NCBI RefSeq assembly: GCF_006152065.1
Contig: NZ_VDFW01000016.1
Span: 62,001 to 126,000, forward strand
From: Amycolatopsis alkalitolerans
GTDB taxonomy: Bacteria > Actinomycetota > Actinomycetes > Mycobacteriales > Pseudonocardiaceae
Length of the DNA: 64,000 nt
Direction of reading: 5' to 3'
Shown here: in pieces, positions 19,641-36,677 of the stretch
Position numbering within the stretch: the first letter of the stretch is position 1
Layout of the letters: every line of letters begins with the position of its first letter
Translations under genes and position numbers: made by a program
Notes under the pieces: generated by a model
The model's input: the letters and a program-made list of their open reading frames with translations, nothing else
Database searches by the model: none
Told to the model about the DNA's origin: nothing

Positions 19641-20771
19641 GTGGGTGAGATCCGGATTCGCGCGGCGACCAAGCGGTTCGGCGCCGTCACCGCGGTGGAC
19701 GGGGTGAGCCTCGACATCGCCGACGGCGAGTTCCTGGTGCTGCTCGGCCCGAGCGGATGCGGCAAGTCGACGCTGCTGCGCGCCGTCGCCGGGCTCACCC
19801 CGCTGGACTCCGGCGGGCTCGAACTCGACGGCCGGGACATCACGCACGTCCCGCCGCGCGACCGCGACCTGGCGATGGTGTTCCAGAGCTACGCGCTCTA
19901 CCCGCACCTGTCGGTGGAGCGGAACATCGGCTTCCCGCTGCGTGCGCGCCGCGCCGGTCGCGCGGACATCGACCGGAAGGTCGCCGAGGTCGCACGCACG
20001 CTCGAACTGGCCGGACTGCTGCGGCGGCGCCCGCGTGAGCTGTCCGGCGGGCAGCGCCAGCGTGTCGCGCTCGGCCGGGCGCTCGTGCGCGACCCGGCCG
20101 CGTTCCTGCTGGACGAACCGCTGTCCAATCTGGACGCCAAGCTCCGGGCGTCCACCCGGTACGAGCTCGTCGAGCTGCACCGCCGCTTGCGCACGACCTT
20201 CGTCTACGTCACCCACGACCAGGTGGAGGCGATGACCATGGCCACCCGCATCGCGATCCTCAACGACGGCCGGCTCGAGCAGGTCGGCACGCCCACCGAG
20301 GTCTACGACGAACCGGCTTCGACCTTCGTCGCCGGGTTCCTCGGCTCACCACCGATGAACCTGCTGCACGCCCGCGTCTCCAGCCGCGGGCGGATGCTCT
20401 TCGCCACCGCGCCCGGAATCGACCTCCCGCTCGAGACGATCGGCGACGTCGGCGAAACCGAGGTCGTGCTGGGCATCCGGCCCGAGCACCTGCGCCCGCA
20501 CGATCCCCGGCCCGGCCTGCACGGGGTGGTCCGGCTGGTGGAGAACCTCGGCGCCGAGGAGATCGCCTACTGCGAGGTCGGGCCCGCCCGGCTCGCGGTC
20601 CGCGGCCCGCGCCCGCTCGGCCTCGCGCCCGGCGACACGGTCGGCCTCGCGGCCGAACCGGAACACCTGCACCTGTTCAGCCCTGCCGGCGGCCGTCGCC
20701 TGGTCTGGCAGGACGACCCCGCTCCGTCCCGTCCCAACGAAGAACCGGAACAGCAAGGAGTACCTGCATGA
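19641..20771 (+). CDS. ugpC: ABC transporter ATP-binding protein (UgpC/MsmK type)
   Basis: A 376-residue ATPase: Walker A GPSGCGKST, signature LSGGQRQRVALGRAL, Walker B AFLLDEPLSNLDAKL, H-loop VTHDQ, and a C-terminal TOBE/OB regulatory domain (about 240-370). It energises sugar or glycerophosphodiester uptake. The GTG start at 19641 is supported by AAGG upstream. It is first in a five-gene operon; its stop overlaps the binding-protein ATG (ATGA). Confidence 0.9.
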   Translation: MGEIRIRAATKRFGAVTAVDGVSLDIADGEFLVLLGPSGCGKSTLLRAVAGLTPLDSGGLELDGRDITHVPPRDRDLAMVFQSYALYPHLSVERNIGFPLRARRAGRADIDRKVAEVARTLELAGLLRRRPRELSGGQRQRVALGRALVRDPAAFLLDEPLSNLDAKLRASTRYELVELHRRLRTTFVYVTHDQVEAMTMATRIAILNDGRLEQVGTPTEVYDEPASTFVAGFLGSPPMNLLHARVSSRGRMLFATAPGIDLPLETIGDVGETEVVLGIRPEHLRPHDPRPGLHGVVRLVENLGAEEIAYCEVGPARLAVRGPRPLGLAPGDTVGLAAEPEHLHLFSPAGGRRLVWQDDPAPSRPNEEPEQQGVPA

Positions 20772-22144
20772 TCACCACACGTTCACGTGCCGGGGGCATC
20801 GTCGCCCTGGCCGTGCTGTTCGGCGCCTCCGCCTGCGGGGTCGGCACCCCGTCGGCGAACTCGCCGGGCACCGTCGCCAAGGCCCCGGAGCTGGCGCCCG
20901 GCCAGCAGGTGTCGATCGTGTTCGAAAGCTACAACTTCGGCCTGGCCGGCACCTGGACGGACACCTTCAACGAGCTCATCGGCCAGTTCGAGAAGAAGTA
21001 CCCGAACATCAAGGTGACCCCGCAGAAGCCGACCGGAAGCGACCCGAACCCCGCGCACAACTCCACGGCCAGCGTGCAGACGGAGATCGCCGCGGGCAAC
21101 CCGCCGGACGTGGCCCAGCTCGGGTTCGACACCCTCGACTTCGCCGTCAACCAGCTCGGCGCGCAGCCGCTGCCCGATCTGGTCGGCAAGAGCGAGCTCG
21201 ACGGCGAGTTCGGCGGGCAGTTCCCCTACGCGCAGGCGATCCGCACCATCGGCGACTACCACGGCAAGACCTACGGCGTGCCGTTCGTGCTGTCCACGCC
21301 CGTGCTCTACTACAACGCGACCCTCTTCCGGCAGGCCGGGCTGAACCCGGACGACCCGCCGAAAACCTGGGACGAGGTGCTGGCCGACGGTCAGAAGATC
21401 AAGCAGGCCACCGGCAAGGACGGCGCCTACGCCGACTGCCTGACCCGGTCCGCGAGCGACTGGTGCTTCCAGAGCCTGGTGCGCTCCAACGGCGGCCGCG
21501 TCCTCTCGCCCGATCGCACCCAGCTGACCTTCGACCAGCCGCAGGTCACGCAGGTCGTCAAGAAGATGCAGGACATGGTGAACGCGGGCGCGACGCCCAA
21601 GCTCAGCCAGCTGCAGGCCACCAACGAGATGCCCCGCGGTGACCTCGGCATGATGCTGGAGAGCAGCGCCGCGCAGGGTGGGTACCTCAAGGGCGCCAAG
21701 GGCGCGAACTGGGAGCTGCGCGCCGCCCCGATGCCCAGCTTCGGCGGGCAGCCGACGGTGCCGACCAACTCCGGTGCCGCGCTGTACGTCTTCTCCAAGG
21801 ACCCGGCCAAACAACGCGCCGCGTGGGACCTGATCAAGTTCCTGACCAGCCCGCAGGCCTACGACACCATCACCAGCAAGATCGGCTACCTGCCGCTGCG
21901 GCTCGGCCTGCTGAACGACCCGGCGCATCTGCAGCCGTGGGCGGCCAAGAACCCGCTGATCAAGCCCAATGTGGACCAGCTGTCGCGGGTCGAGCCGTGG
22001 GTCGCCTTCCCCGGCACCAACTTCCAGCAGATCCGCGACGCGATGATGGACGCGGTCGAGAAGTCCGTGTACCAGGGCGCCGACCCGCAGGCGTCGCTCA
22101 CCGCGGCGAAGCAGCAGGTGGCCTCGCTGGTGCCGGCCAAGTGA
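20768..22144 (+). CDS. ugpB: Extracellular solute-binding lipoprotein (UgpB-like)
   Basis: A 458-residue ABC solute-binding lipoprotein. The signal peptide ends in the lipobox ASAC. The mature protein has the family-1 binding fold with NPPDVAQLGFDTLDFAV, YGVPFVLSTPVLYYN and VPTNSGAALYVF. This resembles UgpB, which binds sn-glycerol-3-phosphate or glycerophosphodiesters. The substrate is inferred from the GpdQ-like phosphoesterase encoded immediately downstream with overlapping stop/start. Confidence 0.9.
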   Translation: MITTRSRAGGIVALAVLFGASACGVGTPSANSPGTVAKAPELAPGQQVSIVFESYNFGLAGTWTDTFNELIGQFEKKYPNIKVTPQKPTGSDPNPAHNSTASVQTEIAAGNPPDVAQLGFDTLDFAVNQLGAQPLPDLVGKSELDGEFGGQFPYAQAIRTIGDYHGKTYGVPFVLSTPVLYYNATLFRQAGLNPDDPPKTWDEVLADGQKIKQATGKDGAYADCLTRSASDWCFQSLVRSNGGRVLSPDRTQLTFDQPQVTQVVKKMQDMVNAGATPKLSQLQATNEMPRGDLGMMLESSAAQGGYLKGAKGANWELRAAPMPSFGGQPTVPTNSGAALYVFSKDPAKQRAAWDLIKFLTSPQAYDTITSKIGYLPLRLGLLNDPAHLQPWAAKNPLIKPNVDQLSRVEPWVAFPGTNFQQIRDAMMDAVEKSVYQGADPQASLTAAKQQVASLVPAK

Positions 22145-22998
22145 CCGCCCCGGTCCCGGAACTGACCCTGATCCAGTTCAGCGACACGCATCTGGGTGCG
22201 GCCGGCGAGCGGATGCACGACACCGTGGACACCTACGCCACGCTGGAGGCCGCGCTCGCCACAGTGCTGTCGTCCGGCACGCGGGTGCACGGCCTGCTGC
22301 TCACCGGCGACCTGGCGGACAACGGGAAACCGGAGGCTTACCGCCGGCTGGCGTCGGCGCTGGCCCCGGCCGCGGAAAAGCTCGGCGCGGACATCGTCTA
22401 CGCGATGGGCAACCACGACGAGCGGGCGGCCTTCCGCGCGGAGCTACTGTCCACTTCGGACGCGGTGGGCCCGGTGGACTCGGTGCACTGGATCGAGGGC
22501 GTGCGGATCCTCGTGCTGGACAGCAGCACGCCGGGCCGGCCCGACGGCAGGCTCGAACCCGGTCAGCTGGAGTGGTTGCGCGCGCGGCTGGCGAGCCCGT
22601 CGCCTCGGGGCAGCATCCTGGTGATCCACCATCCACCGCTGCCCTCGCCCGTGCCGTCGGCGCATCTGTTGCGGCTGCACGACGCCGGGGACCTGGCCGC
22701 CGCGCTGGCGGGCAGCGACGTCCGGATGATCGTCACCGGGCACGCGCATCACACCGGATGCGGGGCGCTGGCCCGGATCCCGGTGTGGGTCTCGCCCGCG
22801 CTCGCCTACCGCTGCGACCCGTTGCCGCCGCCGAACCGGCTGCGGGGCCGGGTGGGCGCGGGGATCAGCCGGATCGACCTGATCGACGGCGTCTTCGTCG
22901 CCACCGCGGTCGAGATCGGCGACGCTCCGCTGGTGTACGACAACGAAAGGGACGCGACAGTGCGCCACGCCATCGAGAAGTTCTTCCAGGACGAGTGA
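22141..22998 (+). CDS. Metallophosphoesterase (GpdQ/CpdA-like)
   Basis: A 285-residue binuclear phosphoesterase: FSDTHLG, LLTGDLADNG, MGNHDER, VIHHPP and VTGHAHHTG supply the canonical metal ligands. The size and the absence of a signal peptide match cytosolic GpdQ/CpdA enzymes, which cleave glycerophosphodiesters or cyclic nucleotides. Lying between ugpB (GTGA overlap) and the permeases, it probably hydrolyses the imported substrate; the order is unusual for ugp operons. Confidence 0.85.
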   Translation: MTAPVPELTLIQFSDTHLGAAGERMHDTVDTYATLEAALATVLSSGTRVHGLLLTGDLADNGKPEAYRRLASALAPAAEKLGADIVYAMGNHDERAAFRAELLSTSDAVGPVDSVHWIEGVRILVLDSSTPGRPDGRLEPGQLEWLRARLASPSPRGSILVIHHPPLPSPVPSAHLLRLHDAGDLAAALAGSDVRMIVTGHAHHTGCGALARIPVWVSPALAYRCDPLPPPNRLRGRVGAGISRIDLIDGVFVATAVEIGDAPLVYDNERDATVRHAIEKFFQDE

Positions 22999-23002
22999 GA
23001 AG

Positions 23003-23941
23003 ATGTTCGTCGAGGTACCGGCACCGGCTGTCATCGCGCCACCCCGCGTGGCGCGGCCGCCGGTGCCGCGGCGCCTGCTGCGCGCCGTGTCGCCCTATCT
23101 GTACCTGGCCCCGTCGCTGGCGCTGCTGGTGATCTGGACCTACCGCCCGCTCGTGCAGACCGCGCAGCTGTCGTTCTACTCATGGAACCTCCTGCCCACC
23201 CAGCCGATGACGCCGGCGGGGCTGGACAACTACCGGCGCCTGTTCGCGCTGCCGGCCGTGGGCCAGTCGGTGCTGCGCACCCTGCTGATCATCGCCGGCC
23301 TGCTGCTGTTCACCGTCGTGGTGCCGGTGGCCGTCGGCCTGCTGACGCAACGCATCCGGGGCCGCGCCCGCTCGGTGTACCAGGCGCTGGTGTTCCTGCC
23401 GTTCCTGGTCCCGCCCGTGGCGAGCGCGACGGTCTGGCAATGGCTGCTCGATCCCAGCGGCGGGATCGTCAACCGGGTGCTGGGCACACACGTGAACTGG
23501 CTGCACGACAGCAAATGGGCGCTGGGCGCGATCATCGTGATGACCGGGTGGTACCTGCTGGGCTTCGCGGTGCTCGTGGTGGCCGCGGGCCTGTCGAACA
23601 TCAACCACGACTACACCGAGGCGGCCATGATCGACGGCGCCTCCCGTGGCCAGATCAGCCGGTGGATCACCTTGCCGCTGCTGTCCCCCACGCTCGTGTT
23701 CCTGGTGCTGATGACCATCCTGCTCTCGGCACAGTGGACGTTCCCGCTGATCGACACGATCACCCAGGGCGGCCCGTCCGGCGCCACGACCAACGTCTAC
23801 TACCTGCTGTGGCAGTACAGCTTCCAGAGCTTCGACGCCGGCCTGAGCACGGCCGCCGGAATCCTGCTGTTCGTGGTGTTCGGCGCCATCGCGGCGGGCC
23901 TCGTCCTACTCGGCGAGAAACTGACGATCCATGACGATTAG
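23003..23941 (+). CDS. ugpA: ABC transporter permease (UgpA-like)
   Basis: A 312-residue permease with about six membrane helices. The EAA cytoplasmic loop is EAAMIDGASRGQISRWITLPLL, which docks on the ATPase. Helix 1 starts near residue 33 (YLYLAPSLALLVIW). It begins 4 bases after the phosphoesterase stop and pairs with the following permease. Confidence 0.9.
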   Translation: MFVEVPAPAVIAPPRVARPPVPRRLLRAVSPYLYLAPSLALLVIWTYRPLVQTAQLSFYSWNLLPTQPMTPAGLDNYRRLFALPAVGQSVLRTLLIIAGLLLFTVVVPVAVGLLTQRIRGRARSVYQALVFLPFLVPPVASATVWQWLLDPSGGIVNRVLGTHVNWLHDSKWALGAIIVMTGWYLLGFAVLVVAAGLSNINHDYTEAAMIDGASRGQISRWITLPLLSPTLVFLVLMTILLSAQWTFPLIDTITQGGPSGATTNVYYLLWQYSFQSFDAGLSTAAGILLFVVFGAIAAGLVLLGEKLTIHDD

Positions 23942-23953
23942 GAATTGTCCACA

Positions 23954-24790
23954 ATGGATGCTGTAACCGTTCCCGCCGGGGCGGGCTCGCGATGGCGGGC
24001 TCTGCCCGGCCACCTCGTGCTCGGCCTGCTCGGCGTGCTCTGCGTGTTCCCGATCTACTGGCTCTACGCCACCTCCCTGCGGCGGCCCGATCAGGTGCTG
24101 TCGCTGTCACCGATCCCGTGGCCGCTGTCGGTGCAGAACTACACCGACGCGATCGGACTGGTCGACCTGCCCCACCTGCTGCTCAACACGGCTCTCGTCG
24201 CCTTGCTGACCGCGCTGGGCCAGCTCTTCACCGGGCTGCTCGCGGCCTACGCGTTCGCCGCCTGGCAGTTCCGGTTCAAACGGTTGTGCTACCTGGCTTT
24301 CGTGGGCACCTGGCTGGTTCCGTTCCAGGTGACAATGCTGCCCAACTACGTGCTGCTCCTGCAGCTGGGCCTGCTGAACACGCTGGCAGGCGTCATCGTC
24401 CCCAACGTCTGCTCGGCGCTCGGCGTGATCCTGCTGCGCCAGCACCTCGACGGCTTCCCCAAGGAGCTGCTGGAGGCGGCGACGATGGACGGGCGCTCGT
24501 CCTGGCGTACCTTGTGGACCGTCGTGGTGCCGAACCTGCGCGCCCCGCTCGCCGCGCTGACCATCCTGCTGTTCGTGACGGCCTGGAACGAGTACTTCTG
24601 GCCGGCGCTGGTCCTGCAGCGCAGCAACAACGTCCTGCAGCTCGGCCTGCGCAGCTTCCTGATCAGCGAGGGCACCCTCTGGGGGCCGCTGATGGCCGTC
24701 GCCGGCCTGGCCTGCCTGCCCATCCTCGTGCTGTACCTGGTGCTGCGCCGGCACGTCGTCAGCGCCTTCGTCCGCTCCGGCCTGAAGTGA
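23954..24790 (+). CDS. ugpE: ABC transporter permease (UgpE-like)
   Basis: A 278-residue permease with six membrane helices and the EAA loop EAATMDGRSSWRTLWTVVVPNL. A TTG three codons upstream (23945) is an alternative start; ATG is preferred. Last gene of the ugp-like operon. Its 3' end overlaps the convergent MFS gene by 32 bases, so read-through would be antisense to it. Confidence 0.88.
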   Translation: MDAVTVPAGAGSRWRALPGHLVLGLLGVLCVFPIYWLYATSLRRPDQVLSLSPIPWPLSVQNYTDAIGLVDLPHLLLNTALVALLTALGQLFTGLLAAYAFAAWQFRFKRLCYLAFVGTWLVPFQVTMLPNYVLLLQLGLLNTLAGVIVPNVCSALGVILLRQHLDGFPKELLEAATMDGRSSWRTLWTVVVPNLRAPLAALTILLFVTAWNEYFWPALVLQRSNNVLQLGLRSFLISEGTLWGPLMAVAGLACLPILVLYLVLRRHVVSAFVRSGLK

Positions 24791-25967
24791 CGCGGGTGTG
24801 CCGCACGAGCGACAGCAGCACCGCAACCGCCGCGAACGCGGTGGCGAACGTCCAGATCCGGCCGGCGCCAAGGCCCGCGATGACCGCGCCACCGATCGCG
24901 GAGCCGAGCGCGATGCCGAAGTACATCGCGGAACCGTTGAGCGACAGCAGCATCGGGGGCTGTTCGGGCGGCGCGTCGGCGATCATGCTGTGCTGCTGGG
25001 CCGGCAGGAAGGCCCAGCCGACCACACCCCAGACGAACACGAACGCGAACGTCGTCACCAGCGTGTGCGAGGCGAGCGGGAGCAGCGCCATATCCGCGGT
25101 GAACACGGTCAGGGTGCCCAGCAGCACCGGCCGTGAGCCGAACCGGTCCACCAGCGAACTGCCGAAGCCGAGCCCGATGAGCGCGCCGAAACCGTGCGCC
25201 ATGATCAGCGCGCCGACGGCACCGGCCCCCACGGCGGGAGCCGCGGCGAAGATCGGCTCCACATAGGTATAGACCATGAGCCCGGCGCACATTCCCGCGA
25301 TCGTCACGACCAGCGCGAGCAGGACCGCCGGCCGGCGAAGCGGCGCCACCCGCTGCCGGAAGGAAGCGCTCGGCGCGGCACCGCTTGCCGTGACGCTCAG
25401 CGCGATGCCGGCCGTGGCGACCACCGCGAGCGCGGCCACGAACACGAACGCCGTCCGCCAGGACCACAGGTGCGCGATCCACACCCCGATCGGCACTCCG
25501 GCCAGTGTGGCGACCGAGATCCCGCCCATCACGATGGCCAGCGCACGCCCGCGCCGGTGGGCGGGCACCATGCCGGCGGCGGCCGCCGCCGCCAGCGGGC
25601 TGTAGAGCCCGGCGAGGCAGCCGGCCACGATCCGCGCCACCGTCATCACCCAGGGCGCCCACGCGACGGCGGCGAGCAGGTTGACCACGACGAACGCGGC
25701 GATCGCGGCCAGCAACAGCCGCCGTGGCGAACGGACCCGCACCAGGGTCAGCACGACCGGCGAACCGACCGCGTACGCGAGCGAGTAGGCGGTGACGAAC
25801 AGGCCACCAGCCGCGACCGGCATATGCAGATCCCGCGACATGTCCGACAGGATCCCGGCGATCAGGTAGTTGTCCGTGCCCGCGCAGAACGCGCCCAGCG
25901 CCAGCATGACCACCGGCAGCCAGCTGACGGCCGGCCGTGCGGGCGCGGCGGTCGTGTTGGATGTCAT
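24759..25967 (-). CDS. MFS transporter, DHA1 family
   Basis: A 402-residue 12-helix transporter. The loop 2-3 motif is degenerate (VRVRSPRRLLLAA), while FCAGTDNYLIAGILSDM, GRALAIVMGGISVATLAGVPIG and MVYTYVEPIFAAAPAVG are typical of AraJ/drug-efflux DHA1 proteins. Directly downstream of the P450 on the same strand (24-base gap), so it may be the exporter of whatever the PKS/P450 genes once made. Confidence 0.87.
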   Translation of the reverse strand: MTSNTTAAPARPAVSWLPVVMLALGAFCAGTDNYLIAGILSDMSRDLHMPVAAGGLFVTAYSLAYAVGSPVVLTLVRVRSPRRLLLAAIAAFVVVNLLAAVAWAPWVMTVARIVAGCLAGLYSPLAAAAAAGMVPAHRRGRALAIVMGGISVATLAGVPIGVWIAHLWSWRTAFVFVAALAVVATAGIALSVTASGAAPSASFRQRVAPLRRPAVLLALVVTIAGMCAGLMVYTYVEPIFAAAPAVGAGAVGALIMAHGFGALIGLGFGSSLVDRFGSRPVLLGTLTVFTADMALLPLASHTLVTTFAFVFVWGVVGWAFLPAQQHSMIADAPPEQPPMLLSLNGSAMYFGIALGSAIGGAVIAGLGAGRIWTFATAFAAVAVLLSLVRHTRVTSGRSGRRR

Positions 25968-25991: not shown

Positions 25992-27185
25992 TCACCAGGC
26001 GACCGGGAGCGAGTCGAGTCCGTAGAAGTTGGTGTTGGGGCGCCACGCGATCTCCTCGAACGGCACGGCGAGCCGCAGGCCGGGGAACCGGCGGAACAGG
26101 GCGGGCAGCGCCATCCGCAGCTCGAGGCGGGCCAGCGGAGCGCCGATGCAGTGGTGAATCCCGTGCCCGAAGGCAAGATGGGCGCCGGGTTTGCGGGCCG
26201 GGTCGAAGCTGTCCATTCCCTCGCCCAGCTGCTCGTCGCGGTTGGCGATCGGCGGCGAGCACATCAGCAGTTCCCCGGCCTTGACGGGCTGCCCGGAGAT
26301 CGTGACGTCCTCCTGCGCGATCCGGGGGAACAGGTTGTGCGTGATCGACAGGTAGCGCAGCAGCTCCTCGATCACCTGCTCGAGCTGCTGGTCACCGCCG
26401 AACAGCAGGGGGACGTGCTCGGGGTGGCGCAACAGCACGAGCGTGCCCAGCGACAGCATCGACATCGTGGTCTCGTACCCGGCCTGCACCATGAGGTCGG
26501 CGACACCGGCGAGCTCGCGGTCGGTGAGTTCGTCGCCGTGCTCGCGGATCAGCATGCCCAGCATGCCCTCACCGGGGTCGGCGCGCTGCTGGCGGACGAA
26601 CTCCACCATGATCTCGCCGGCGCGCTCGGTGGCCGCCTTCCGCTCGTCGACGGGAAGGGAGAAGTCGGTGAACTTCGAGCTGAGCGGCAGCAGCTTGGTG
26701 CGGCCCTCGAACGGCACCCCGAACAGCTCGCAGATCACGAGCATCGGCAGCCGCAGCGCGAACTGGCTCACCAGCTCCGCGGGCGCGCCGGTCCGCTCCA
26801 TCTCGTCGAGGTGCCCGGTCACCGTGGCCTCGATCCGCGGCTCGAGCCGGGCGAGCCGCCGCTTGGTGAACTCCGCGGCAAGCATCCGGCGCAGCCGGGT
26901 GTGCGCCGGCGGGTTGTAGACGATGAACCAGCCGGTACCGTCCACACCGGACGATCCGTCCCCGGCGCCCGCGAAGTAGGGCGGCGGGGCGCTGGTGAAC
27001 CGCTTGTGGTCGCCGAGGATCATCCGCACGTCCTCGTACCGCGTGACCAGCCACGTCTGCACGCCCCAGTGATAGTCCACTTTGGTCACCGGGCGTTCCG
27101 CGCGAAGGCGTTCCAGCTCCGGGAGCGGATCGAAGCCGTCACGCCGGGCGAACAGGGGCGGCTGCTGTGTTCCGGTAGTCATCAT
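25992..27185 (-). CDS. Cytochrome P450
   Basis: A 397-residue soluble bacterial P450. The I-helix is VQAGYETTMSML, the K-helix ExxR is in EELLRYLS, and the heme-binding loop FGHGIHHCIGAPLARLE has the proximal Cys. The final FYGLDSLPVAW is typical of CYP105/107-like tailoring enzymes. The ATG overlaps the stop of the PfaC-like gene (ATGATGA), so the two are translationally coupled. It is probably a tailoring oxidase for the lipid or polyketide chain; the redox partner is not adjacent. Confidence 0.9.
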   Translation of the reverse strand: MMTTGTQQPPLFARRDGFDPLPELERLRAERPVTKVDYHWGVQTWLVTRYEDVRMILGDHKRFTSAPPPYFAGAGDGSSGVDGTGWFIVYNPPAHTRLRRMLAAEFTKRRLARLEPRIEATVTGHLDEMERTGAPAELVSQFALRLPMLVICELFGVPFEGRTKLLPLSSKFTDFSLPVDERKAATERAGEIMVEFVRQQRADPGEGMLGMLIREHGDELTDRELAGVADLMVQAGYETTMSMLSLGTLVLLRHPEHVPLLFGGDQQLEQVIEELLRYLSITHNLFPRIAQEDVTISGQPVKAGELLMCSPPIANRDEQLGEGMDSFDPARKPGAHLAFGHGIHHCIGAPLARLELRMALPALFRRFPGLRLAVPFEEIAWRPNTNFYGLDSLPVAW

Positions 27186-29155
27186 CGGTCCTTTCCGTGC
27201 CGTTCCCGTAGCTCGACGGCGATGTCGTCCAGTTCGTAGATCCGCATGCCCGGTTTCCACACGCTCGCCTCGCCGGCGACCCGGACGCGGCCGGGCCGGC
27301 GCTCGACGCTCTTGATGTGCACTTCGAGGGTCATCTCGCGGTCCTCGGCCAGGATCTGCCCGCGGTAGCGCCACGACATCGGCAGGTTCGCCGGGAGCAC
27401 GAACTCCGGTTCGTCGAGGTCGCCGGCCAGTCCGGCGTCGATCGCCCACTCCTGCATCGCCTGGATCACCGCCTCCACCCCGAGCGAGCCGGGCATCACC
27501 GGATCGAGATGGAAGTGGTAGGCGAAGAACCAGTCGTCCGCCCGGATCGGGCGCACGGCGTGCAGATACCCCTCGCCGTGCTTGCCGCCACCGTCGACGA
27601 CGGTGACGGAGTCCAGCAAGGCCAGGTGCCCGCGCGAGCAGAGCACGCCGGTTTCGCGCCGCGTGGCGACGTCGATGGTGCGTGTCGTGGCGCGGTTGGT
27701 CTCCAGCCAGGGCGGCACATACGCGCCGTTGTCGAGTCCGTTCTGGTTGGCCAGCGCGGTTTCGTTGAAGAAGCCGAACAGCGACTCCCCCGCGTAGAAC
27801 GGTTCCCCGTCCACGGAAAGCTCGTAGGAGAACGACTGCAGCACCGCACCGACGAGCACGGTGGTGCCCAGCAGGCGGCTGGTCTGCTGGATCGTCTTGT
27901 CCCGCAGATCGACCTCGCGCAGTACGGTCGCGGTCCCGTCGAGATTGCGCAGGCTGTAGTCCTCCTCCGGCGCGGTCAGCGTCGCGCCGAGGAAGTAGCC
28001 GAGCAGCAGCGCGGACTGCAGCGAGGTCTCCATGTGGACGACGTTGGGCATGGAGGCGTTCGCGGTTTCGGCGTAGTACCAGGAATCCGCGGGTGAGTCG
28101 TACTCGGTGTGGCCGGTGCCGCCGGTGAGCTTGCCGCGCTCGCCCTCCACCGCCATGACCCGGTCGCACAGCTGCAGCCCGTGGTTGGGCATCCGGGTGG
28201 CGCGGCGGCCCGCGTACCGGGCGAACTCGGGCCCCAGCGCGATGTCCAGGTCCCCGCGGGCACTGTGGGTCATGTGGAACTCACCGAGCAGTGCGCGCTG
28301 GCCGAATCCGTTGCGGCGACCGAAGAACCGGGGGATCACGCCGCCGGTCTCCGGACCGATCGGGAGCCCGGGCTCCTCGCGGATGCCCACGGTGAGGTCG
28401 TTCACGCGGGCCACAAGAGCGCCGTCGCGGCGAAGTTCGGCGGTGACCCGCAGCCACGGGCGCGGGATCAGGTCGATCTCCATGACGTCGAGCGTCAGCT
28501 CGCCATCGCCCACAATGGACTGGATGAGCCCGGTTTCGCGCTCGCCGGTGGTTTCGAAGCGCGCTCCGGAGAGGCACAGGTGCAGGCCGGCGTGCATCGC
28601 GAACACCTGGGCCGCCTGCACCACGACCTCTTCCGCGGCGGTGGTCCCCTCGTCGTAGGCGCGGTACGCCGCGTGCAGCCTGCCCCGGTGCCAGGGGCCG
28701 GCGTGCCGGTCGATGTCCCGGACCGCGGTGAGCGCGCCGTGGTCGGACGCGGTGAGGTGGATCGCCGGGTTGGCGCCCTCCTGGTCGTAGGCGGCGCCGA
28801 ACACGTTCGCGATCGCGCCGTGGCCGAGTTCCGCGAGTGCGTTTTCGTCCAGTGAGGTGACGGGCGTCCGGGCGAGCGCTTTGAAGGCGCTCATGGTGGA
28901 GGCGGGCTCGGGGGTCCGGACGCGGCGGCGCGGCTCAGTCGGCGGTGTGACGCTCGTGAGCCGGTGCCGCTGCAGCCCGGTCTGCACGGTCATCGCGGAG
29001 GTGTGCGCCGCGATCAGGCTGGTGCGGAACTCGTGCAGGAGCCCGGAAATCACGTCGTCCCGACGGGGTGCGGGTTCGTCGAGTTCCGCCACGGTCCAGG
29101 CGAGGGCGTCGAACGGCTCCCCGGTGAAGTCGAGCGCGTCGAGTTGCGCTGTCAT
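27182..29155 (-). CDS. PfaC-like protein with FabA-type dehydratase domains
   Basis: 657 residues with tandem hot-dog (FabA-like) dehydratase/isomerase domains, as in PfaC of polyunsaturated fatty acid/polyketide synthases. The clearest motif is YHFHLDPVMPGSLGVEAVIQ (about residue 560), the FabA active-site region. A more degenerate copy lies around 330-420 with MPNVVHMETSLQSALLLGYF. The ketosynthase part found in full-size PfaC is missing, so this is a DH-only variant. It is coupled upstream to a 25-codon ORF and the truncated synthase, and downstream to the P450. Confidence 0.8.
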   Translation of the reverse strand: MTAQLDALDFTGEPFDALAWTVAELDEPAPRRDDVISGLLHEFRTSLIAAHTSAMTVQTGLQRHRLTSVTPPTEPRRRVRTPEPASTMSAFKALARTPVTSLDENALAELGHGAIANVFGAAYDQEGANPAIHLTASDHGALTAVRDIDRHAGPWHRGRLHAAYRAYDEGTTAAEEVVVQAAQVFAMHAGLHLCLSGARFETTGERETGLIQSIVGDGELTLDVMEIDLIPRPWLRVTAELRRDGALVARVNDLTVGIREEPGLPIGPETGGVIPRFFGRRNGFGQRALLGEFHMTHSARGDLDIALGPEFARYAGRRATRMPNHGLQLCDRVMAVEGERGKLTGGTGHTEYDSPADSWYYAETANASMPNVVHMETSLQSALLLGYFLGATLTAPEEDYSLRNLDGTATVLREVDLRDKTIQQTSRLLGTTVLVGAVLQSFSYELSVDGEPFYAGESLFGFFNETALANQNGLDNGAYVPPWLETNRATTRTIDVATRRETGVLCSRGHLALLDSVTVVDGGGKHGEGYLHAVRPIRADDWFFAYHFHLDPVMPGSLGVEAVIQAMQEWAIDAGLAGDLDEPEFVLPANLPMSWRYRGQILAEDREMTLEVHIKSVERRPGRVRVAGEASVWKPGMRIYELDDIAVELRERHGKDR

Positions 29156-29229
29156 CGGTTCTCCTCTGTGTCCTGCGGGGCGCCCGCACCCGGTCGGCCC
29201 CGATAAGCGGCTTCGCGATTTTCGGTCAT
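29152..29229 (-). CDS. 25-codon ORF coupled at both ends
   Basis: A 25-residue ORF (MTENREAAYRGRPGAGAPQD...) bridges the synthase and the PfaC-like gene. Its ATG overlaps the synthase stop as ATGA, and its own stop overlaps the next ATG as ATGA. GAGGAG near its end serves as the Shine-Dalgarno for the downstream gene. It could be a real small protein or a reinitiation bridge. No homology is recognisable. Confidence 0.45.
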   Translation of the reverse strand: MTENREAAYRGRPGAGAPQDTEENR

Positions 29230-31899
29230 CGGTCCTCCCGCAGCCGCACGGCTTCGGCGAACTTGGCGGTCATCTCGGGGGTCGCGATCACGGACAGATC
29301 CTGGTACCGCTGCAGCACCCGGCCGTCCGGATCGCTCGCGGTGACGGTCACGGTGACCTGGGTCCGGTCGGAGTTCGTGCGCAGCTCACCTGCCTCGGCG
29401 ACGAACGGGCGGTCACCGGGCAGCGGCGCGAAGTACTCGATGCGGCCAATGCTCAGCGGCAGGCAGCCAGACTCCATGAACCACACGCCGAGCAGCGAGC
29501 CCACCTGGATCACCACGTCCGACAGCACCGGGCTGTGCAACGCGCTCGCGAACTGGCCCTGGGCGATCGGCGTGTCCGGCAGCCGGCATTCCGCCACGAA
29601 GAGCCGTTCTTCACGCCGGAGGACGCGGCGGATGCCCTGCAGTAGCGGGCCGTGGAACAGCGTCGCGCTGCGGTAGACCTCGAGCCCGTCCTCTTCCCCG
29701 TCGCCGAGCACGTACCCGTTGCCTCGCGGTGCGGGCGGCGGTTCGGGCGCGAGCACGAAGGTGCCGGCGAAGTGTGACGGCGTCCGGCCGGCTTCGGCGC
29801 TGCGGATCCAGGCCTTGACGGTGAGCCGCCCGCCGGCGAGTGTGCCGCTGTCCACGTCGAGCCAGTAGTCACACTCATGGGTGCCGTCGTAGACGATTCC
29901 CTTCAGGACCTCGAATCCCGAGCATTCGATCACGCGGAGCCCGGCGTTCGCCCGCTCCAGCACGTTGATCGCCCAGCCCAGCCCGGCCGCCGCCGGGAAC
30001 ACCGGGAACCGGCCGACCCGGTGATCGAGGACGACCGGGTCGGTCGCGGTCGCGCCGAGGTCCCGGTGCGCGGTGAACGCGGCCGTCCCGCTGGGCACCG
30101 CGGGCGGGGCGAGCGGCACCGGCGGGCCGGCCAGGACCGAGACGTCGTCGGCGCGGGCTCGGGTGAGCTGGTCGGCGAACAGGCGCGCCCCGGTGTCCAT
30201 CCCGAGCAGTGCCACGCCGCGGGCGAGGAACACGTCCCGGAGTTCGGGGGTGACCATACCGCCGTCCCAGGCGCCCCAGTTGATCGTGGTCACCTGACTC
30301 GCCGGGCGCTCGCGCTTCCAGCTGATCCCGATCCGGTTGACCGCCTCGTTCGCGACGGCGTAGTCGGCCTGGCCCGGATTGCCGAGCACGCCCGCGACCG
30401 AGCCGAACAGGATGACGTGACGCAGCCTGGTCCCGTCGAGCGCGGTGGCGACGTTGAGCAGACCGTCCACTTTGGTCGCGAGTACGGTGCGGATATCGGC
30501 CGGTGTCTTGGCCGGAAGCAGGGCGTCGGCGAGCGCACCGGCGCCGTGCACGAGTCCGGTGACGCGCTCGCGGATTGGTTCCAGCGCCTTCCTGGTCGCT
30601 TCGGCGTCGGTCACGTCGACGGTCAGGTACTGTGCGCCGGTCGCCGAAATGGTCGCCCGGATCTCCCGCTGTGCCCGCAGATCACGGACGATCCGGTCGA
30701 TGTCCTTCGGCTTCTGCCCGGGCAGGCCGGTGATCGCCGCGGCCTTGATTTCGTCGTCGGCGACGCCGGTTGCCCAGTCCGGTTCCTCGGTGAGTTCCGT
30801 TCGGCCGAGCAGGATGAACTCGCAGGCGCCGCGCCCGGCCAGTTCGCGGACGCAGCGGGCGGTCACGCCGCGGGCGCCGCCGGTCACGACGAGCACGTCG
30901 TCCCCGGTGATCGTCGAGTCGGTGGTTTCGGCGTTTTCGATGGCGCGGGGCCGGACGGTCCAGCGAGTGCGGTCGGCGTCGATCGCGACCTCGCGAGCGT
31001 CGGTGGCGGCGTCGTCGAGTTCGGCGAGGACGGCCTCGGCCAGGTCCTCGTCGGTGAGTTCGGGGGCGAGGTCGAGTGCCCGGCAGAACAGGCGGGGTGC
31101 CTCCTGGGCCAGGGTCTTCGCCAGCCCGCCGATGCCACCGACCAGGGACGCGGCCGCCGGACGGTCGCCACGGTGGCCGAGCGCGCCGTCGATACGGGTG
31201 ACGGTCACGAACGCGGCGCGGCCATCAGCGGTGAGGCGATCGTGGACGAGCTTGGCGGTGAGGATGGTGTCGGCCAGCCTGCGCGCGCCCGTTTGCCAGT
31301 GGTCTCCGGCGGGCAGAACGGTCAGGCAGAGGTCGAGCCCGGCCGGGGCTTCCGCGAGGCTCGCGCTGATCTCGTCTCCGTCCCATGTGGACAGCGGCGC
31401 GTCCTTCTGGCCGGCGCTGACCCGGTGCACGACCCAGCCGCGCTGCTCGAGCGTCGCGGCGAGCACCGTCGCGGACGGCTCCCCGTGGTCGATGACGAGT
31501 GCTGTTTTCCCGTCGCGGTAAGGCTGTTCGAGGCGGTCGATCGCGGGAAGCCGGACCAACTCGATCTGCTGGAGCACAGGCTGCTCGGGGGCGGGCGCCG
31601 GTGTTTCGGTGGTTCCGCCGATGAACCCGACGATGTCATTCAACGTCCGCAACTCCGCGGCTTGCTCGGGTCCTACCGCCGGAACACCGTCCACGCGGTC
31701 CCGCAACGCACCCAGAATCTGCACCCGCTTGATCGAATCGACCCCCAGATCCGCCTCCAAATCCATCGACAGATCCACCATCTCCGGCGGATACCCCGTC
31801 TTCTCCGACACCACCTCCACCAACACCGACCGCACATCCGGCCCAACCGGACCCGACCCACCACCGATGAACCCGACGATGTCGTTCAACGTCCGCAAC
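29226..31899 (-). pseudogene. 5'-truncated PfaA-like polyketide/PUFA synthase (ACP-KR-DH)
   Basis: The open frame runs to 31982, but recognisable synthase sequence begins only at about 31899. It contains one complete ACP (phosphopantetheine Ser in LGVDSIKRVQIL), a ketoreductase (VLVVTGGARGVTARC, then FGSVAGVLGNPGQADYAVAN) and a C-terminal hot-dog dehydratase-like part. KS and AT, which start intact PfaA-type synthases, are missing. The linker [13 protein letters not shown] occurs twice, 82 residues apart, once right at the breakpoint. So the gene broke inside a tandem ACP array. The remaining frame is intact, which suggests recent decay or use of the fragment in trans. Confidence 0.78.
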
Positions 31900-31913
31900 G
31901 GTCCGCATCCGGT

Positions 31914-31997
31914 GTGACCGCCGACGACCTTCAGCGTTTCACCCGCACGTTCGCCGACCTCGCCGACCCCGATGTGATGCATCAGGCCTGGACGTGA
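31914..31997 (+). pseudogene. C-terminal remnant of the gene preceding the PIN toxin
   Basis: From GTG 31914 the plus strand encodes [20 protein letters not shown] and a few more residues, ending in TGA that overlaps the toxin GTG (GTGA). It looks like the tail of a small helical regulator or antitoxin whose front was replaced by the PKS segment ending at 31899. I cannot name the family. Confidence 0.4.
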
Positions 31998-32419
31998 CCA
32001 CGAGGAGGTCCACCCATTGGCTCATCGACAAGTCCGCGCTGGCCCTGCTGGGCGCGAGCCCCGATGCGGGTGAATGGGCCGCCCGCATCGAACGCGGCCT
32101 CGTGCACGTCACCAGCATCACCCTTCTCGAGGTCGGCTACTCCGCCCGCTCAGCGGAAGACATCCGTGGCGGTCTGCGTCGCCCTCCCCTGTCTCACCTG
32201 CCGGTGGAGTACCTGACGCCCGCCATCGAGGACCGCGCCGTCGACGTGCTCATGCTGCTGGCCGAGCGCGGCCAGCACCGCGCGCCGTCGATCCCCGATC
32301 TACTCATCGCGGCCACCGCGGAACTGGCCGGGCTCACCGTGCTCCACCTCGACAAGCACTTCGACCTCATCGCGCAGCTCACGAACCAGCCGGTCGAAAG
32401 GCTTGCTAAGCCGACTTGA
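31994..32419 (+). CDS. PIN-domain ribonuclease toxin (VapC-like)
   Basis: A 141-residue PIN domain. Acidic active-site residues are in WLIDKSAL (Asp), LLEVGYSAR (Glu), [10 protein letters not shown] (Asp) and [11 protein letters not shown] (Asp). VapC toxins cleave tRNA or rRNA and are normally co-encoded with an antitoxin just upstream. Here only a 27-codon tail precedes it, so it may be an orphan. The GTG start overlaps the stop of that tail. It overlaps the convergent LysR gene by 14 bases. Confidence 0.85.
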
Positions 32420-33350
32420 CCTCCGCGGCCCTCGGCTCGGCGCCGGGCCCTTCGAACGGGCCGACGGCGTCGATGCAGTCGAGGAAGGCCGCCTGCAGGC
32501 GGTTCGGTTCGCCGTCCCGCCAGACGACGTACAGGTCGATCATCGGGACCGGGTTGTAGAGCGGGACCGGTACCGGCCGCACTCCGCCGGCCGCCGCGCC
32601 CGCGAGCACGCCCCGGGACGCCGAGGCGAACCCGACCAGTGGTTTGACCGAGACGAGGATGCCGGTCGCGCCCGGGTCGTCGACGACATGCGCGACGTTG
32701 AGCCGGATCCCGGTGCGCTCGGCCGCCGACAGGATCGCGTCGTACATCGCCGGGCACTGCTCGCGGCCGAACAGGATGCACGGGTGCTGCGCCAGTTCCG
32801 CGAACGGCACGCCCGGCCGCCCCGCCCACTTGTGGCCCGGCCCGACGACCGCGACCATCGGCAGCCGCAGCAGCCGCCGGTACTGGAAGTCGCTGGTCAC
32901 CGGGCGGCCGTAGACCAGGGCGATGTCCAGGTCACCGTCCGCGAGCGCCTGCAGTTGCGGTCCGGTGCGCTTCTCCTCCAGCCGGACCGTCACGTCCGGC
33001 AGTTCGGCGTGCATCCGCGCGAGCGTGGCGGGCAGGATGTGCTGGCCGGCGGGGAAGTTGTAGCCCACTCTTACCGTGCCGGTGCGGCCGGCCGCGGCCT
33101 CGCGCGCGGACAGCGCGGCCTTGTCCATCTGCGTAACGATCGCGCGCGCCTCGACTTCGAAGGCCCGGCCGGCCGAGGTCAGCCGCACCTCGTGCGACGT
33201 GCGCGCGACGAGTTCCACGCCCAGCGTGCGTTCGAGGCGCTGCAGCTGCTGGCTGAGTGAGGGCTGGGTCAGGTGCAGTCGCGCGGCCGCCCGGCCGAAA
33301 TGCAGCTCCTCGGCGATCGCGAGGAATGACACCAGATGCCTGAACTCCAT
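32406..33350 (-). CDS. LysR-family transcriptional regulator
   Basis: A 314-residue LysR regulator. The N-terminal HTH is [20 protein letters not shown], then [20 protein letters not shown]. The effector domain (about 90-300) begins [17 protein letters not shown]. It is divergent from the isochorismatase-like gene and is the obvious candidate to bind the long-range inverted repeat in the shared 236-base gap. Confidence 0.92.
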
Positions 33351-33488
33351 GTCCGTCCTCCCGGCTCGGGCCCCAGCCTCACCTACTCCGGCGAACAGCC
33401 GGTGAACCGCCGGGCAGCGGGACGAGGAATATTAGGCAATGGTGCGGCAAGCCGGCGGGCATTCCAGCTCAATACTGTGCCGTTCGTG

Positions 33489-33575
33489 ACTAATCCGACC
33501 ACAGTCACGGCCATCCGGCTTGCGTAGCAGCGGTTACGTGCTGCTCGGGGTCTGCCTGCTTTTGGTCGGATTAGT
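33489..33575. promoter_or_regulatory. Pair of inverted 13-bp boxes between LysR and isochorismatase
   Basis: ACTAATCCGACCA (33489-33501) and its exact reverse complement TGGTCGGATTAGT (33563-33575) are 61 bases apart, about six DNA turns. The right copy ends 11 bases before the hydrolase ATG. They could be two operators for a looping repressor or LysR tetramer, or the arms of an mRNA stem. Confidence 0.65.
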
Positions 33576-33586
33576 AACATACCGTC

Positions 33587-34150
33587 ATGAGCACACTCGA
33601 CAACCGGCCGAACACCGCGCTGCTCGTCGTCGACGTGCAGACCGGGGTGGTGGCCGAGGCGTATGACCGGGGCGCCGTCATCGCGAACGTCGCCACCCTG
33701 GTCGGCAAGGCGCGTGCCGCCGGGGCGCGGGTCGTCTGGATCCAGCATTCGAGCGATCAGCTGCCGTGGGGCAGCGACGGCTGGCAGTTCGTGCCGCAGC
33801 TGTCACGGGACGACGGGGAACCGTTGGTGCACAAGAGGTATCCGGACTCGTTCGAGGACACGGAGCTCGAATCGGTCCTCGCCGCGCTCGCCGTGGGGCG
33901 GCTGGTCGTGGCGGGCGCGCAGACCGACGAGTGCATCCGCTCGACCCTCCACGGCGCGATCACCCGCGGCTACGACGCCACCCTGGTCGGCGACGCGCAT
34001 ACGACCGAGGATCTGACGCAGTTCGGCGCCCCGTCGCCGGACAAGGTCATCGCGCATACCAACCTGTACTGGCGCTACCACACCGCGCCCGGCCGCGCCG
34101 CAGGCGTGGTGAGCACCGCCGAAGCCGATTTCACCGGCGAATCCGGTTAG
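33587..34150 (+). CDS. Isochorismatase-family cysteine hydrolase
   Basis: A 187-residue hydrolase. The catalytic triad positions are Asp in LLVVDVQTGVV, Lys in VHKRYPDSF and Cys in AGAQTDECIRSTL. The family covers nicotinamidase, isochorismatase and N-carbamoyl hydrolases; nothing selects among them here. Probably regulated by the divergent LysR protein. Confidence 0.87.
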   Translation: MSTLDNRPNTALLVVDVQTGVVAEAYDRGAVIANVATLVGKARAAGARVVWIQHSSDQLPWGSDGWQFVPQLSRDDGEPLVHKRYPDSFEDTELESVLAALAVGRLVVAGAQTDECIRSTLHGAITRGYDATLVGDAHTTEDLTQFGAPSPDKVIAHTNLYWRYHTAPGRAAGVVSTAEADFTGESG

Positions 34151-34454: not shown

Positions 34455-34880
34455 ATGCCAGACCATCCGGCGCGCGTCGAGGACGTGCACGAGATCGCGC
34501 TCGCGATGCCGCATGTCACCGTCTACCCCGGCACCGAGGACAAGCCGGTCTACCAGGTGGGCGGCAAGTCGTTCGTGTTCTTCCGTAACCCGCGCCCGGA
34601 TGCGGTCGATCCGGAGACCGGGGAACGCTACCCGGATGTGATCGTCTTCTGGGTGCCCTCCGAGGCCGACAAGCAGGCGCTGGTCCAGGACGAAGGCCTG
34701 CCGTTCTTCACCACCCCGCATTTCAACGGGCACTCGTCGGTGCTCGTGCGGGCGAGCCGCCTCGACGAGCTGAGCCGGGACGAACTCGCCGAGGTCATCC
34801 AGGAGGCGTGGCTGTGCCGGGCGTCGAAACGGCGCGCGGCGGCCTGGCTCGCCGAGCACTCGCCGGACGGGCTCAGCTGA
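34455..34880 (+). CDS. MmcQ/YjbR-family protein
   Basis: A 141-residue YjbR-fold protein, beginning with ARVEDVHEIALAMPHVTVYPG and containing VGGKSFVFFRNPRPDA, FFTTPHFNGHSSVLVRA and a C-terminal helix LAEVIQEAWLCRASKRRAAAW. The family is described as DNA-binding-like (double-wing) but the function is unknown. ATG 34455 with GAGGTG just upstream. It overlaps the convergent encapsulin gene by 8 bases. Confidence 0.85.
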   Translation: MPDHPARVEDVHEIALAMPHVTVYPGTEDKPVYQVGGKSFVFFRNPRPDAVDPETGERYPDVIVFWVPSEADKQALVQDEGLPFFTTPHFNGHSSVLVRASRLDELSRDELAEVIQEAWLCRASKRRAAAWLAEHSPDGLS

Positions 34881-35670
34881 ACGCGACGGCGGCTTCGGCG
34901 GTGTTGACCAGGAAGGTCAGCGACTCCTCGAGGTAGAGCTGCACGGTCTCGGCGTCGTGCGACAGGTAGCCGATGGACGCGTCCTGGCCCAGGTGCAGCT
35001 CGTAGTCGCCCCCACGGGTGGAGACCAGCAATGCCGCCGAAAGCGCCGGCGCCCAGACGATCTCGCCTGCCTCACCGAGGACGCGCGCGACGTGCTGGCG
35101 GATCGGGTACCCGTGCTCGGTGGTCTCGTCCAGCGCCGTGTACGTCTCGGCGGGCAGCAGCAGCGCGTAGTCGCCGCTGACACCGTCCAGGCGGAGGGCG
35201 CTGATCGCGTGCGCGATCGCGGTCGGGTACGCGGTCGCCTGCGCGGGCAGGGCCAGGGTGGTGGGCGCCGCGGCGCGGATGCCGGTGATCCCCGCGCTCG
35301 GCAGGCCCTCGGCGACGATCCGGTCCTCGGTGAACGCGAGTTGCTTCGCGGCATCCTTGACCGGCTGCCAGTCCGCGTCGCGCGCGCCGCGTTCCACGTC
35401 GTCGACCGCCGCGCGGCTGACGGCGAACGGGACGCGGAGCTCGACCACGGTCGCGACCTCGCGGCGGCGCACCCGCACGCCCTGCCCGGGGGCTTCGAGT
35501 TCGCTCAGGTGACCGGTGCCGACCGCGGCCAGCCGCGCACCGGCCGGCTCGGTCACGTCGACCACCCGGCGGCCCGCGAGATGCCCGGTGAAGGTGCGCC
35601 GGGCTTCCTCTTCGAGGTCGGCCCACGCGGCGGCCGAGACCGGGGCGAGTTCGCGGTGCAGGTTGTTCAT
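34873..35670 (-). CDS. Encapsulin shell protein
   Basis: A 265-residue HK97-fold encapsulin. The N-terminal MNNLHRELAPVSAAAWADLEEEARRTF, GRRVVDVTEPAGA and VRRREVATVVELRVPF, and the C-terminal LYLEESLTFLVNTAEAAVAF, are characteristic of family 1 shells. It self-assembles into a protein compartment that encloses the peroxidase encoded directly upstream; the start overlaps the peroxidase stop (ATGA). Confidence 0.93.
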   Translation of the reverse strand: MNNLHRELAPVSAAAWADLEEEARRTFTGHLAGRRVVDVTEPAGARLAAVGTGHLSELEAPGQGVRVRRREVATVVELRVPFAVSRAAVDDVERGARDADWQPVKDAAKQLAFTEDRIVAEGLPSAGITGIRAAAPTTLALPAQATAYPTAIAHAISALRLDGVSGDYALLLPAETYTALDETTEHGYPIRQHVARVLGEAGEIVWAPALSAALLVSTRGGDYELHLGQDASIGYLSHDAETVQLYLEESLTFLVNTAEAAVAFS

Positions 35671-36677
35671 GACGTGATCCGTTTCTGCTTGAGACTGCCG
35701 ATGCGCAGCGAGTGGTCGCCGATGTCGTGCGCGGGCCCGGCCGCCGGGGCGGGCGGCGGTTCGTCGAGGAAGTCCTGGCTGGGCACGAAGAACAGGCATC
35801 CGGTGACCGGCGTGGAGAACTCGAGGATGCGGTCGGTGTTGCCCGGCGGGCTGCCGATGAACATGTTCTCCAGCATCTGCTCGATCACCCCGGGATCGGC
35901 CGCGTACCCGATGAAGTACGTGCCGCGCTCCCCGTCCGCGAGCCGCGCGAACGGCATGTTGTCGCGCACGATCTGCCGCTCCTCGCCGTCCTCGCCGACG
36001 ATGGTGGTCAGCGCGACATGCGAGTTCGCCGGTTTGACGTCGTCGGGCAGTTCGATGTCGGACAGTTTCGTGCGCCCGACGACCCGTTCCTGCTCCTCGA
36101 CGCTCACCGCGTGCCACGCCGCCATGTCGTGCAGGTACTTCTGGACGATCACGTAGCTGCCGGCCGCGTACTCCGGGTCGTCACCGCGGACGAACACCGC
36201 CTCGCCGGCCGCGCGGCCGTCCGGGTTCTCCGTGCCGTCGACGAAGCCCAGCAGGTCCCGCTCGTCGAAGTACTTGAAGCCGTGCACCTCGTCGACGACC
36301 TTCGCGACCCCCGACAGCCGCGCCATGAGCTGGTCGGCCAGCTCGAAACACAGGTCCATGGTGGCGGCACGGAGGTGGAACAGCAGGTCGCCCGGGGTCG
36401 AGACCGCCGTGCGCACCGGGCCTTCGAGTACGCGGAAGGGATGCAGCCCGGCCGGGGGCGGCCCGGCGAAGAGCCGGCCGAACAGCTCCGCGCCGATTCC
36501 GGTGACGCACGCGAGCCCGCCTTCGGGCACCCGGAACCCCACCGACCGGTTCAGCCCGCCGAGGTCGGGCAGCAGCTCGCGGACCACGTCCTCGCCGCCC
36601 TCGTCGACCGTCACCACCAGGAAGATCGCCGCCGCCGTCAACCTGGTCAGTACCGGCTGCGGCGCTGGATCGCGCAC
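35667..36677 (-). CDS. DyP-type heme peroxidase, encapsulin cargo
   Basis: A 336-residue dye-decolorizing peroxidase. The catalytic GxxDG motif is in GFVDGTENP, the proximal heme His in ANSHVALTT, and a conserved Arg in IVRDNMPF. The C-terminal tail HDIGDHSLRIGSLKQ matches the encapsulin cargo-loading peptide. The GTG at 36677 is preferred because GGGGAGGG lies at correct spacing; the GTG at 36683 would abut it. Follows the sigma-factor gene by 60 bases. Probably oxidises peroxides or phenolics inside the shell. Confidence 0.93.
   Translation of the reverse strand: MRDPAPQPVLTRLTAAAIFLVVTVDEGGEDVVRELLPDLGGLNRSVGFRVPEGGLACVTGIGAELFGRLFAGPPPAGLHPFRVLEGPVRTAVSTPGDLLFHLRAATMDLCFELADQLMARLSGVAKVVDEVHGFKYFDERDLLGFVDGTENPDGRAAGEAVFVRGDDPEYAAGSYVIVQKYLHDMAAWHAVSVEEQERVVGRTKLSDIELPDDVKPANSHVALTTIVGEDGEERQIVRDNMPFARLADGERGTYFIGYAADPGVIEQMLENMFIGSPPGNTDRILEFSTPVTGCLFFVPSQDFLDEPPPAPAAGPAHDIGDHSLRIGSLKQKRITS

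Follow-up and report, generated by a model that had tools for sequence, protein, structure and literature searches.

What remains of a PfaA-type lipid synthase locus in Amycolatopsis alkalitolerans: a probable deletion remnant beside a P450 and an exporter

To which biosynthetic system do the lipid synthase genes on contig NZ_VDFW01000016.1 of the soil bacterium Amycolatopsis alkalitolerans belong, and is that system still at work? The stretch analyzed (64,000 nucleotides, positions 62,001 to 126,000 of the contig; hereafter the window) encodes the C-terminal part of a PfaA-like synthase, a PfaC-like protein with only a dehydratase (DH), an overlapping cytochrome P450 and an exporter of the major facilitator superfamily (MFS). 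All of these parts, named in the original prediction of a decayed polyunsaturated lipid synthase, are confirmed by Pfam, NCBIfam and the sequence. The locus is best explained, with a probability of about 0.88, as the 3' end of a cluster for a PfaA-type iterative lipid synthase, left behind by a deletion of ~24 kb. This deletion, probably a single event, would extend from just past the gene of the cluster's outer LysR-type regulator into the tandem acyl carrier protein (ACP) array of pfaA. At the joint, a vapBC pair with a truncated vapB gene would have remained. The window copy most likely makes nothing.

The truncated PfaA was identified by Pfam in the frame 29226-31982 of the minus strand. 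One ACP and the end of another, a ketoreductase (KR) and a PS-DH domain are retained, and neither a ketosynthase (KS) nor an acyltransferase (AT) domain is found in it by Pfam. Among NCBIfam models, TIGR02813 (omega_3_PfaA) matches best; the match extends into the PS-DH region and reaches 445.3 bits, below the cut-off of 1010.1. The DSIKR motif of the ACP is still present, and inspection by eye suggests intact motifs in KR and DH. In the DH protein, Pfam finds a single FabA-like domain and no KS, as compared with the KS-chain length factor (CLF) and two dehydratases of PfaC. The closest relatives of this DH protein are found in Amycolatopsis sp. GM8 and A. pithecellobii (genomes G249 and G234). 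It is 82% identical to both across 642 shared columns (74-76% at full length), and the truncated PfaA is 77-81% identical to their PfaA.

Relatives of the DH protein are present in at least 60 of the 297 genomes of the family, including that of the window (E<=1e-20, four DH candidates scored per genome). A scan of GTDB genomes gave 151 stretches with a DH relative, among them Frankia, Rhodococcus, Nocardia and Streptomyces, and the best 80 were kept for comparison of the loci. Syntenic clusters were found in GM8, in A. pithecellobii (divided between two contigs at the ACP array) and in A. orientalis DSM 43388. According to Pfam and homology, the intact order is outer LysR, a segment of ~10 kb, inner LysR, PfaD, ACC, biotin carboxylase, AMP ligase, FAD oxidoreductase, GDSL hydrolase, PfaA and DH. 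In GM8, the ~10-kb segment consists of a hydrolase, a P450, an AMP ligase, a thioesterase, a second P450, a desaturase, a DUF4442 protein and another hydrolase (Pfam). The set of DSM 43388 is complete: LysR, PfaD, ACC, biotin carboxylase, ligase, FAD oxidoreductase, GDSL hydrolase, PfaA with KS and AT, DH, P450, MFS and a transporter. Its PfaA carries KS, AT, three ACPs and KR in 2179 aa and scores 1772.8 bits with TIGR02813, over the cut-off of 1010, which the PfaA of GM8 also passes with 1995 bits. Both intact relatives whose PfaD was run against TIGR02814 (A. pithecellobii and DSM 43388) exceed the cut-off of that model, so the suggestion of a family lacking PfaD is not supported. In the DH proteins of two intact stretches (L068 of GM8, and L199), the Pfam result is the same as in the window, without KS. 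The intact PfaA proteins of these stretches have no PS-DH match in Pfam, and a third (L082) has a PKS_DH_N match under the cut-off; their C-terminal DH is assigned solely on the basis of homology with the window protein, in which PS-DH is matched.

In such an intact cluster, malonyl-CoA would come from ACC and biotin carboxylase, and PfaA would elongate the chain iteratively on its ACPs. The DH protein and PfaD would act as dehydratase/isomerase and enoyl reductase. Activation, modification or release of the chain would fall to the AMP ligase, the FAD oxidoreductase and the GDSL hydrolase. In the DSM 43388 variant, the P450 would then oxidize the chain and the MFS protein would export the product.

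The far edge of this cluster can still be recognized in the window. The window LysR shares 92% identity with the outer LysR of GM8 (L200:3373-4278), 91% with that of A. pithecellobii (L204) and 73-74% with that of DSM 43388, and 80-100 bp of the DNA upstream of it also aligns (79-84%). It is thus the orthologue of the outer LysR and marks the cluster's edge, still in place. The alternative that it is a local regulator of the adjoining isochorismatase-like gene was rejected: the GM8 homologue of that gene has, in the stretch compared, a LysR of only 31% identity beside it, and the 92% match is the outer LysR of the cluster. From the end of the outer LysR gene to the last ACP, the distance is 24.4 kb in GM8 and 24.2 kb in DSM 43388. 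The equivalent span in the window measures ~510 bp and contains vapC and the end of vapB. The loss of ~40 of the 73 codons of vapB is shown by comparison with full-length vapB in three other stretches (L088, L090 and L091), and the 5' extension of the PfaA frame past 31899 is the antisense of the truncated vapB. Homologues of vapC in other genomes are 65-77% identical, with one partial match at 48%, and VapC gave no match in the intact stretches L198, L199, L200, L068 and L070. Coordinates are collected in Table 1.

Table 1. Genes of the remnant and its transporter flank (window coordinates)
Feature	Position	Strand	Basis and remarks
LysR-type regulator	32406..33350	-	Orthologue of the outer (far-edge) LysR of intact clusters
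vapC toxin gene	31994..32419	+	PIN domain (Pfam); not seen in the intact clusters
vapB antitoxin, 3' fragment	31896..31997	+	5' part (~40 of 73 codons) gone at the joint; compared with full-length vapB
Truncated PfaA	29226..31899	-	Pfam; end of one ACP and one full ACP 31620-31826, KR 30264-30890, PS-DH 29274-29675
PfaC-like dehydratase-only (DH) protein	27182..29155	-	FabA-like domain 27230-27631 (Pfam)
Cytochrome P450	25992..27185	-	Pfam; ATG at 27185 or 27182, overlapping the DH gene stop
MFS exporter (predicted)	24759..25967	-	Pfam MFS_1; 24 bases after the P450; outside the interval of the original prediction
ABC sugar-type transporter, flanking	20768..24790	+	Convergent with the cluster; solute-binding protein 20768-22144 (Pfam)
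Rest of ABC transporter region	metallophosphoesterase ending 22998; permeases 23003-23941 and 23945-24790	+	By eye

Remnants of vapBC were also seen elsewhere in the genus, in genome G209 (L087) and on contig C57 of A. pithecellobii (L086). In L087, vapC matches in separate fragments, and the sequence upstream shows no start of a full-length vapB.

The missing half was searched for in the rest of the genome, of which the window is an inner part (positions 62001-126000 of contig C8; 84 contigs, stated completeness of 100%). The KS-AT part of the GM8 PfaA was recovered at 100% in GM8, its own source, at 89% in A. pithecellobii and at 80% in genome G321. The best matches in the window's genome do not exceed 37%, and no PfaA-type KS-AT was found there. 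A search of this genome with the KS family gave eight matches, none of the PfaA type as judged from their context and from the KS-AT query. The loss of KS and AT that had been predicted is thus borne out, both in the protein and in the assembly. The same applies to the predicted lack of PfaD, for which zero matches were obtained in this genome at E<=1e-5, in a search without a positive control of its own; PfaB was not searched for.

These searches bear on the possibility, raised with the original prediction, that an assembly error at 31899 hides the rest of the synthase. The cluster would then be complete and misjoined at the tandem ACP repeats. Such arrays do break other assemblies, as contigs of A. 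pithecellobii, G162 and G257 end inside them, and the present assembly is in 84 contigs. However, the lost half was not found in the rest of an assembly stated to be 100% complete (KS, KS-AT and PfaD searches), the joint adjoins the cluster's own LysR and not a random site, the break in PfaA (~31896-31901) is not at a contig end, and the truncated PfaA is under relaxed selection (see below). A misassembly is considered very improbable, because it would have to drop 24 kb entirely and stop beside the LysR of the cluster.

Two KS genes on contig C22 (frames of 847 and 422 aa) were considered as the lost half and rejected, since they are part of a different cluster and at most 37% like the KS of PfaA. 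They lie in a stretch of 10.6 kb (C22:20007-30585; KR and thioesterase by eye) that is 99.92% identical to DSM 43388. In comparison, identity to this strain at the DNA level is 91.7% for rpoB and ~94% in the 20 kb to the left of the stretch, and a recombinase-like frame (by eye) comes after it. This looks like a very recent exchange between the two lineages.

Selection on the remnant was estimated from the ratio of nonsynonymous to synonymous substitution rates (dN/dS). For the truncated PfaA, the ratio is 0.34 on the window branch, compared with 0.12 for GM8 and 0.17 for A. pithecellobii, an order reversed in none of 1000 bootstraps. The corresponding values are 0.21 against 0.16 and 0.15 for DH (70 of 1000 reversed), 0.10 against 0.07 and 0.09 for LysR (286 of 1000) and 0.13 against 0.07 and 0.11 for rpoB (207 of 1000). 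On these comparisons, the constraint on the truncated PfaA is relaxed.

A reduced system may be imagined in which the ACP-KR-DH protein, the DH protein, the P450 and the MFS protein cooperate with a ketosynthase from elsewhere. The four frames are intact and free of stops, as originally predicted, dN/dS is well below 1, the DSIKR motif is kept, and other KS genes are present in the genome. This is, however, a highly unlikely reading of the locus. Within the first 150 codons of the truncated PfaA, a crude ribosome-site pattern, itself a weak test, flagged just two internal starts (31694 and 31643), which lie within the ACP or directly behind it. A search of 31500-33700 for a sigma-70-like promoter was negative (0.2 expected by chance), although this test too is weak in an actinomycete. 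The searches for KS, AT and PfaD were negative as well, and the constraint is relaxed.

Several observations weigh against a remnant formed by deletion. Neither a stop nor a frameshift is present across the 888 and 657 codons of the truncated PfaA and the DH gene. If the whole excess of dN (estimated at 0.064 per site) were neutral, ~3.7 stops would be predicted in the truncated PfaA, with a chance of 0.026 of finding none. This leaves either some constraint from residual use or a relaxation that started in another way. The two permease genes also have a higher dN on the window branch than on the sister branches, so that the synthase is not alone in its faster rate; in the permeases, this is ascribed to their foreign ancestry. 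Beyond the LysR gene, the window is not syntenic with GM8, which indicates more than one rearrangement. Furthermore, the joint is known from the assembled sequence and not from individual reads, and the absence of PfaD rests on a search lacking a control in the same run. 

The two arms of the locus have different ancestries. RpoB of the window's genome is, over 599 residues, 97% identical to that of GM8 and A. pithecellobii and 94% to that of DSM 43388. The synthase and LysR follow this order of relatedness, but the transporter genes group the window with DSM 43388 instead. Constraining the transporter tree to unite the window with GM8 and A. pithecellobii carries a penalty of 46 log units (approximately unbiased (AU) test, p 1.2e-5), and constraining the synthase tree to unite it with DSM 43388 carries one of 45 log units (AU p 1.1e-5). 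The groups for these AU tests were defined after viewing quick trees, on 13 rows that we chose, and the P450 and MFS genes themselves are not in the test. Given the conflict between the arms, the P450-MFS-transporter arm was probably acquired by recombination, with a joint near the end of DH. A breakpoint inside DH was considered and dropped, as sliding identity gave no clear switch. The alternative of a vertically inherited P450-MFS unit, lost in GM8 and A. pithecellobii, was also set aside in favor of recombination, because the transporter tree rejects the grouping of the window with these two genomes; a loss combined with exchange is a less favored possibility.

The P450 and the MFS protein are 86% and 83% identical to the genes at the same position in DSM 43388. 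In that strain, the P450 begins 16 bases after the DH stop without overlap, and the P450-MFS pair has the same direction as DH. In the window, the start of the P450 overlaps the DH stop in the sequence CGATGATG. The overlap lies at the probable recombination joint and would thus not be an old conserved feature; with this and the 16-base gap of DSM 43388, the predicted translational coupling is not supported as a sign of function.

The gene following DH was counted in the 77 loci with at least 2 kb after it, as the next recognized gene within 600 bp. This gene is PfaD in 68 loci, MFS in two, and a co-directional P450 and an opposed P450 in one each; an ABC (ATP-binding cassette) permease and a LysR follow once each, and three loci show no match to the queries. 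A co-directional P450 and then MFS occur after DH in DSM 43388 alone. The two MFS cases are Nocardia alba and N. salmonicida, where the gene directly adjoins DH and its protein is 67-68% identical to that of the window. A full-length cluster with the predicted DH-P450-MFS partners does therefore exist in a relative, DSM 43388. It is rare, and a P450 with an exporter is not a general feature of the family.

Close relatives differ in this slot. In GM8, DH is followed by a strong hairpin (L068:15633-15905, by eye) and then the transporter, as if the operon ended at the hairpin. In A. pithecellobii, an FAD oxidoreductase occupies the slot, and a hidden P450 or MFS remnant was searched for in its 2.5 kb and rejected, none being found. 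MFS gave no match at E<=1e-8 in 18 stretches from relatives (L068-L085). The MFS subfamily appears to be rare, being present at E<=1e-110 in at least two of the 297 family genomes, the window's own and GM8. P450s with identities of up to 56% are by contrast common, in at least 288 of the 297 at E<=1e-60 (six candidates scored per genome in both searches). The closest NCBIfam model of the MFS protein is a Cmx/CmrA-type drug exporter, under its cut-off, as holds for all 25 NCBIfam families displayed. The copy in GM8 (76%) is on another contig, away from the synthase (L220, G249:C2:130001-143000). It is surrounded by LysR (48%), P450 (30%) and ABC (36-39%) genes distantly like those of the window locus. 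Similar ABC, P450 and LysR genes lead into PfaD in the N. salmonicida synthase cluster (L202), and those of N. alba lie on a separate contig (L201).

Are the P450 and the MFS exporter involved in tailoring of the lipid? They might instead be passengers of the transporter arm, serving for example the efflux or detoxification of something else, and this is a serious possibility, although at less than even odds. The pair follows DH in a single locus among the 77, the transporter arm of the window differs in ancestry from the synthase, close kin lack both genes at this position, and the MFS protein resembles drug exporters. On the other hand, the same rare MFS subfamily is found directly after DH in the two Nocardia, the copy of GM8 sits beside genes distantly like those of the locus, and the pair of DSM 43388 follows DH in the same direction.

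The ABC sugar-type transporter is more widespread. ABC permeases of at least 55% identity are found downstream of DH in 35 of the 80 relatives, all of them among the 64 that extend 8.5 kb or more past DH, and are convergent with the cluster in all 35. The genera concerned are Amycolatopsis, Actinokineospora, Nocardia, Rhodococcus, Frankia and Streptomyces. This conserved arrangement suggests a functional link between the convergent transporter and the lipid cluster.

PfaA shares its KS-AT-ACP-KR order with the enediyne synthase PksE, which has a single ACP and an integral phosphopantetheinyl transferase (PPTase) domain. In contrast, five PfaA proteins compared here have two to five ACP motifs, and no PPTase domain was found in the three that were run through Pfam. 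Among P450s of solved structure, the nearest by sequence is OxyB of the glycopeptide antibiotics, at 348 bits. The OxyB P450s act on carrier-bound substrates. The likeness is not specific, because of the abundance of such P450s in the family.

Twenty types of Pfa-like secondary lipid clusters have been distinguished by Shulse and Allen in 2011 (PMC3098273). Types M (Frankia, Actinosynnema, Streptomyces avermitilis and others) and Q (Rhodococcus erythropolis) are actinobacterial, and their products are given there as uncharacterized. The present family resembles them in its Pfa-type iterative synthase and in overlapping genera (Frankia, Rhodococcus, Streptomyces), a likeness drawn from the genera alone. 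In contrast, the part of that text which deals with the uncharacterized types names no P450 or MFS (PMC3098273), and the window copy is broken. With the canonical PfaABCDE synthase of omega-3 polyunsaturated fatty acids (type A in PMC3098273), the family shares KS-AT-tandem ACP-KR in PfaA, a FabA-like dehydratase and PfaD. It differs in a PfaC without KS-CLF and in the additional ACC, biotin carboxylase, AMP ligase, FAD oxidoreductase and GDSL genes. A Pfa-like cluster has also been noted in Kutzneria albida (PMC4210621). As to the idea of an undescribed biosynthetic family, the synthase falls in a published class of uncharacterized secondary lipid synthases (PMC3098273). The family is of a known kind, and its P450-MFS variant is the part deserving work. 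No literature on this variant or on the product of the family was found among the matches listed, which were openly licensed papers and were obtained with no query for the exact combination.

The copy in the window, although probably a dead end, leads to an actinobacterial lipid cluster of wide occurrence (151 stretches from one scan) whose product is uncharacterized. The scar illustrates how such a cluster changes: closely related genomes differ in the slot after DH, the arms have separate ancestries, and a repeat array forms one end of a large deletion. A tentative proposal, which we regard as unlikely on present evidence, is that the DH-P450-MFS variant (intact in DSM 43388, with DH-MFS in N. 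alba and N. salmonicida) represents an undescribed Pfa-type branch. Its P450 would oxidize the polyunsaturated chain, perhaps while carrier-bound, its MFS protein would export the product, and the convergent ABC transporter would be part of the same physiology. If true, these synthases would be sources of secreted molecules and not of membrane lipids. As one named and sequenced strain, A. orientalis DSM 43388, holds the intact variant, the question of the product is testable.

Near the remnant, two other pairs of frames were named by eye. A DyP-type peroxidase frame is followed by an encapsulin-like frame at window positions 34873-36683, and two frames at 38080-40130 resemble the large and small subunits of a NiFe hydrogenase.

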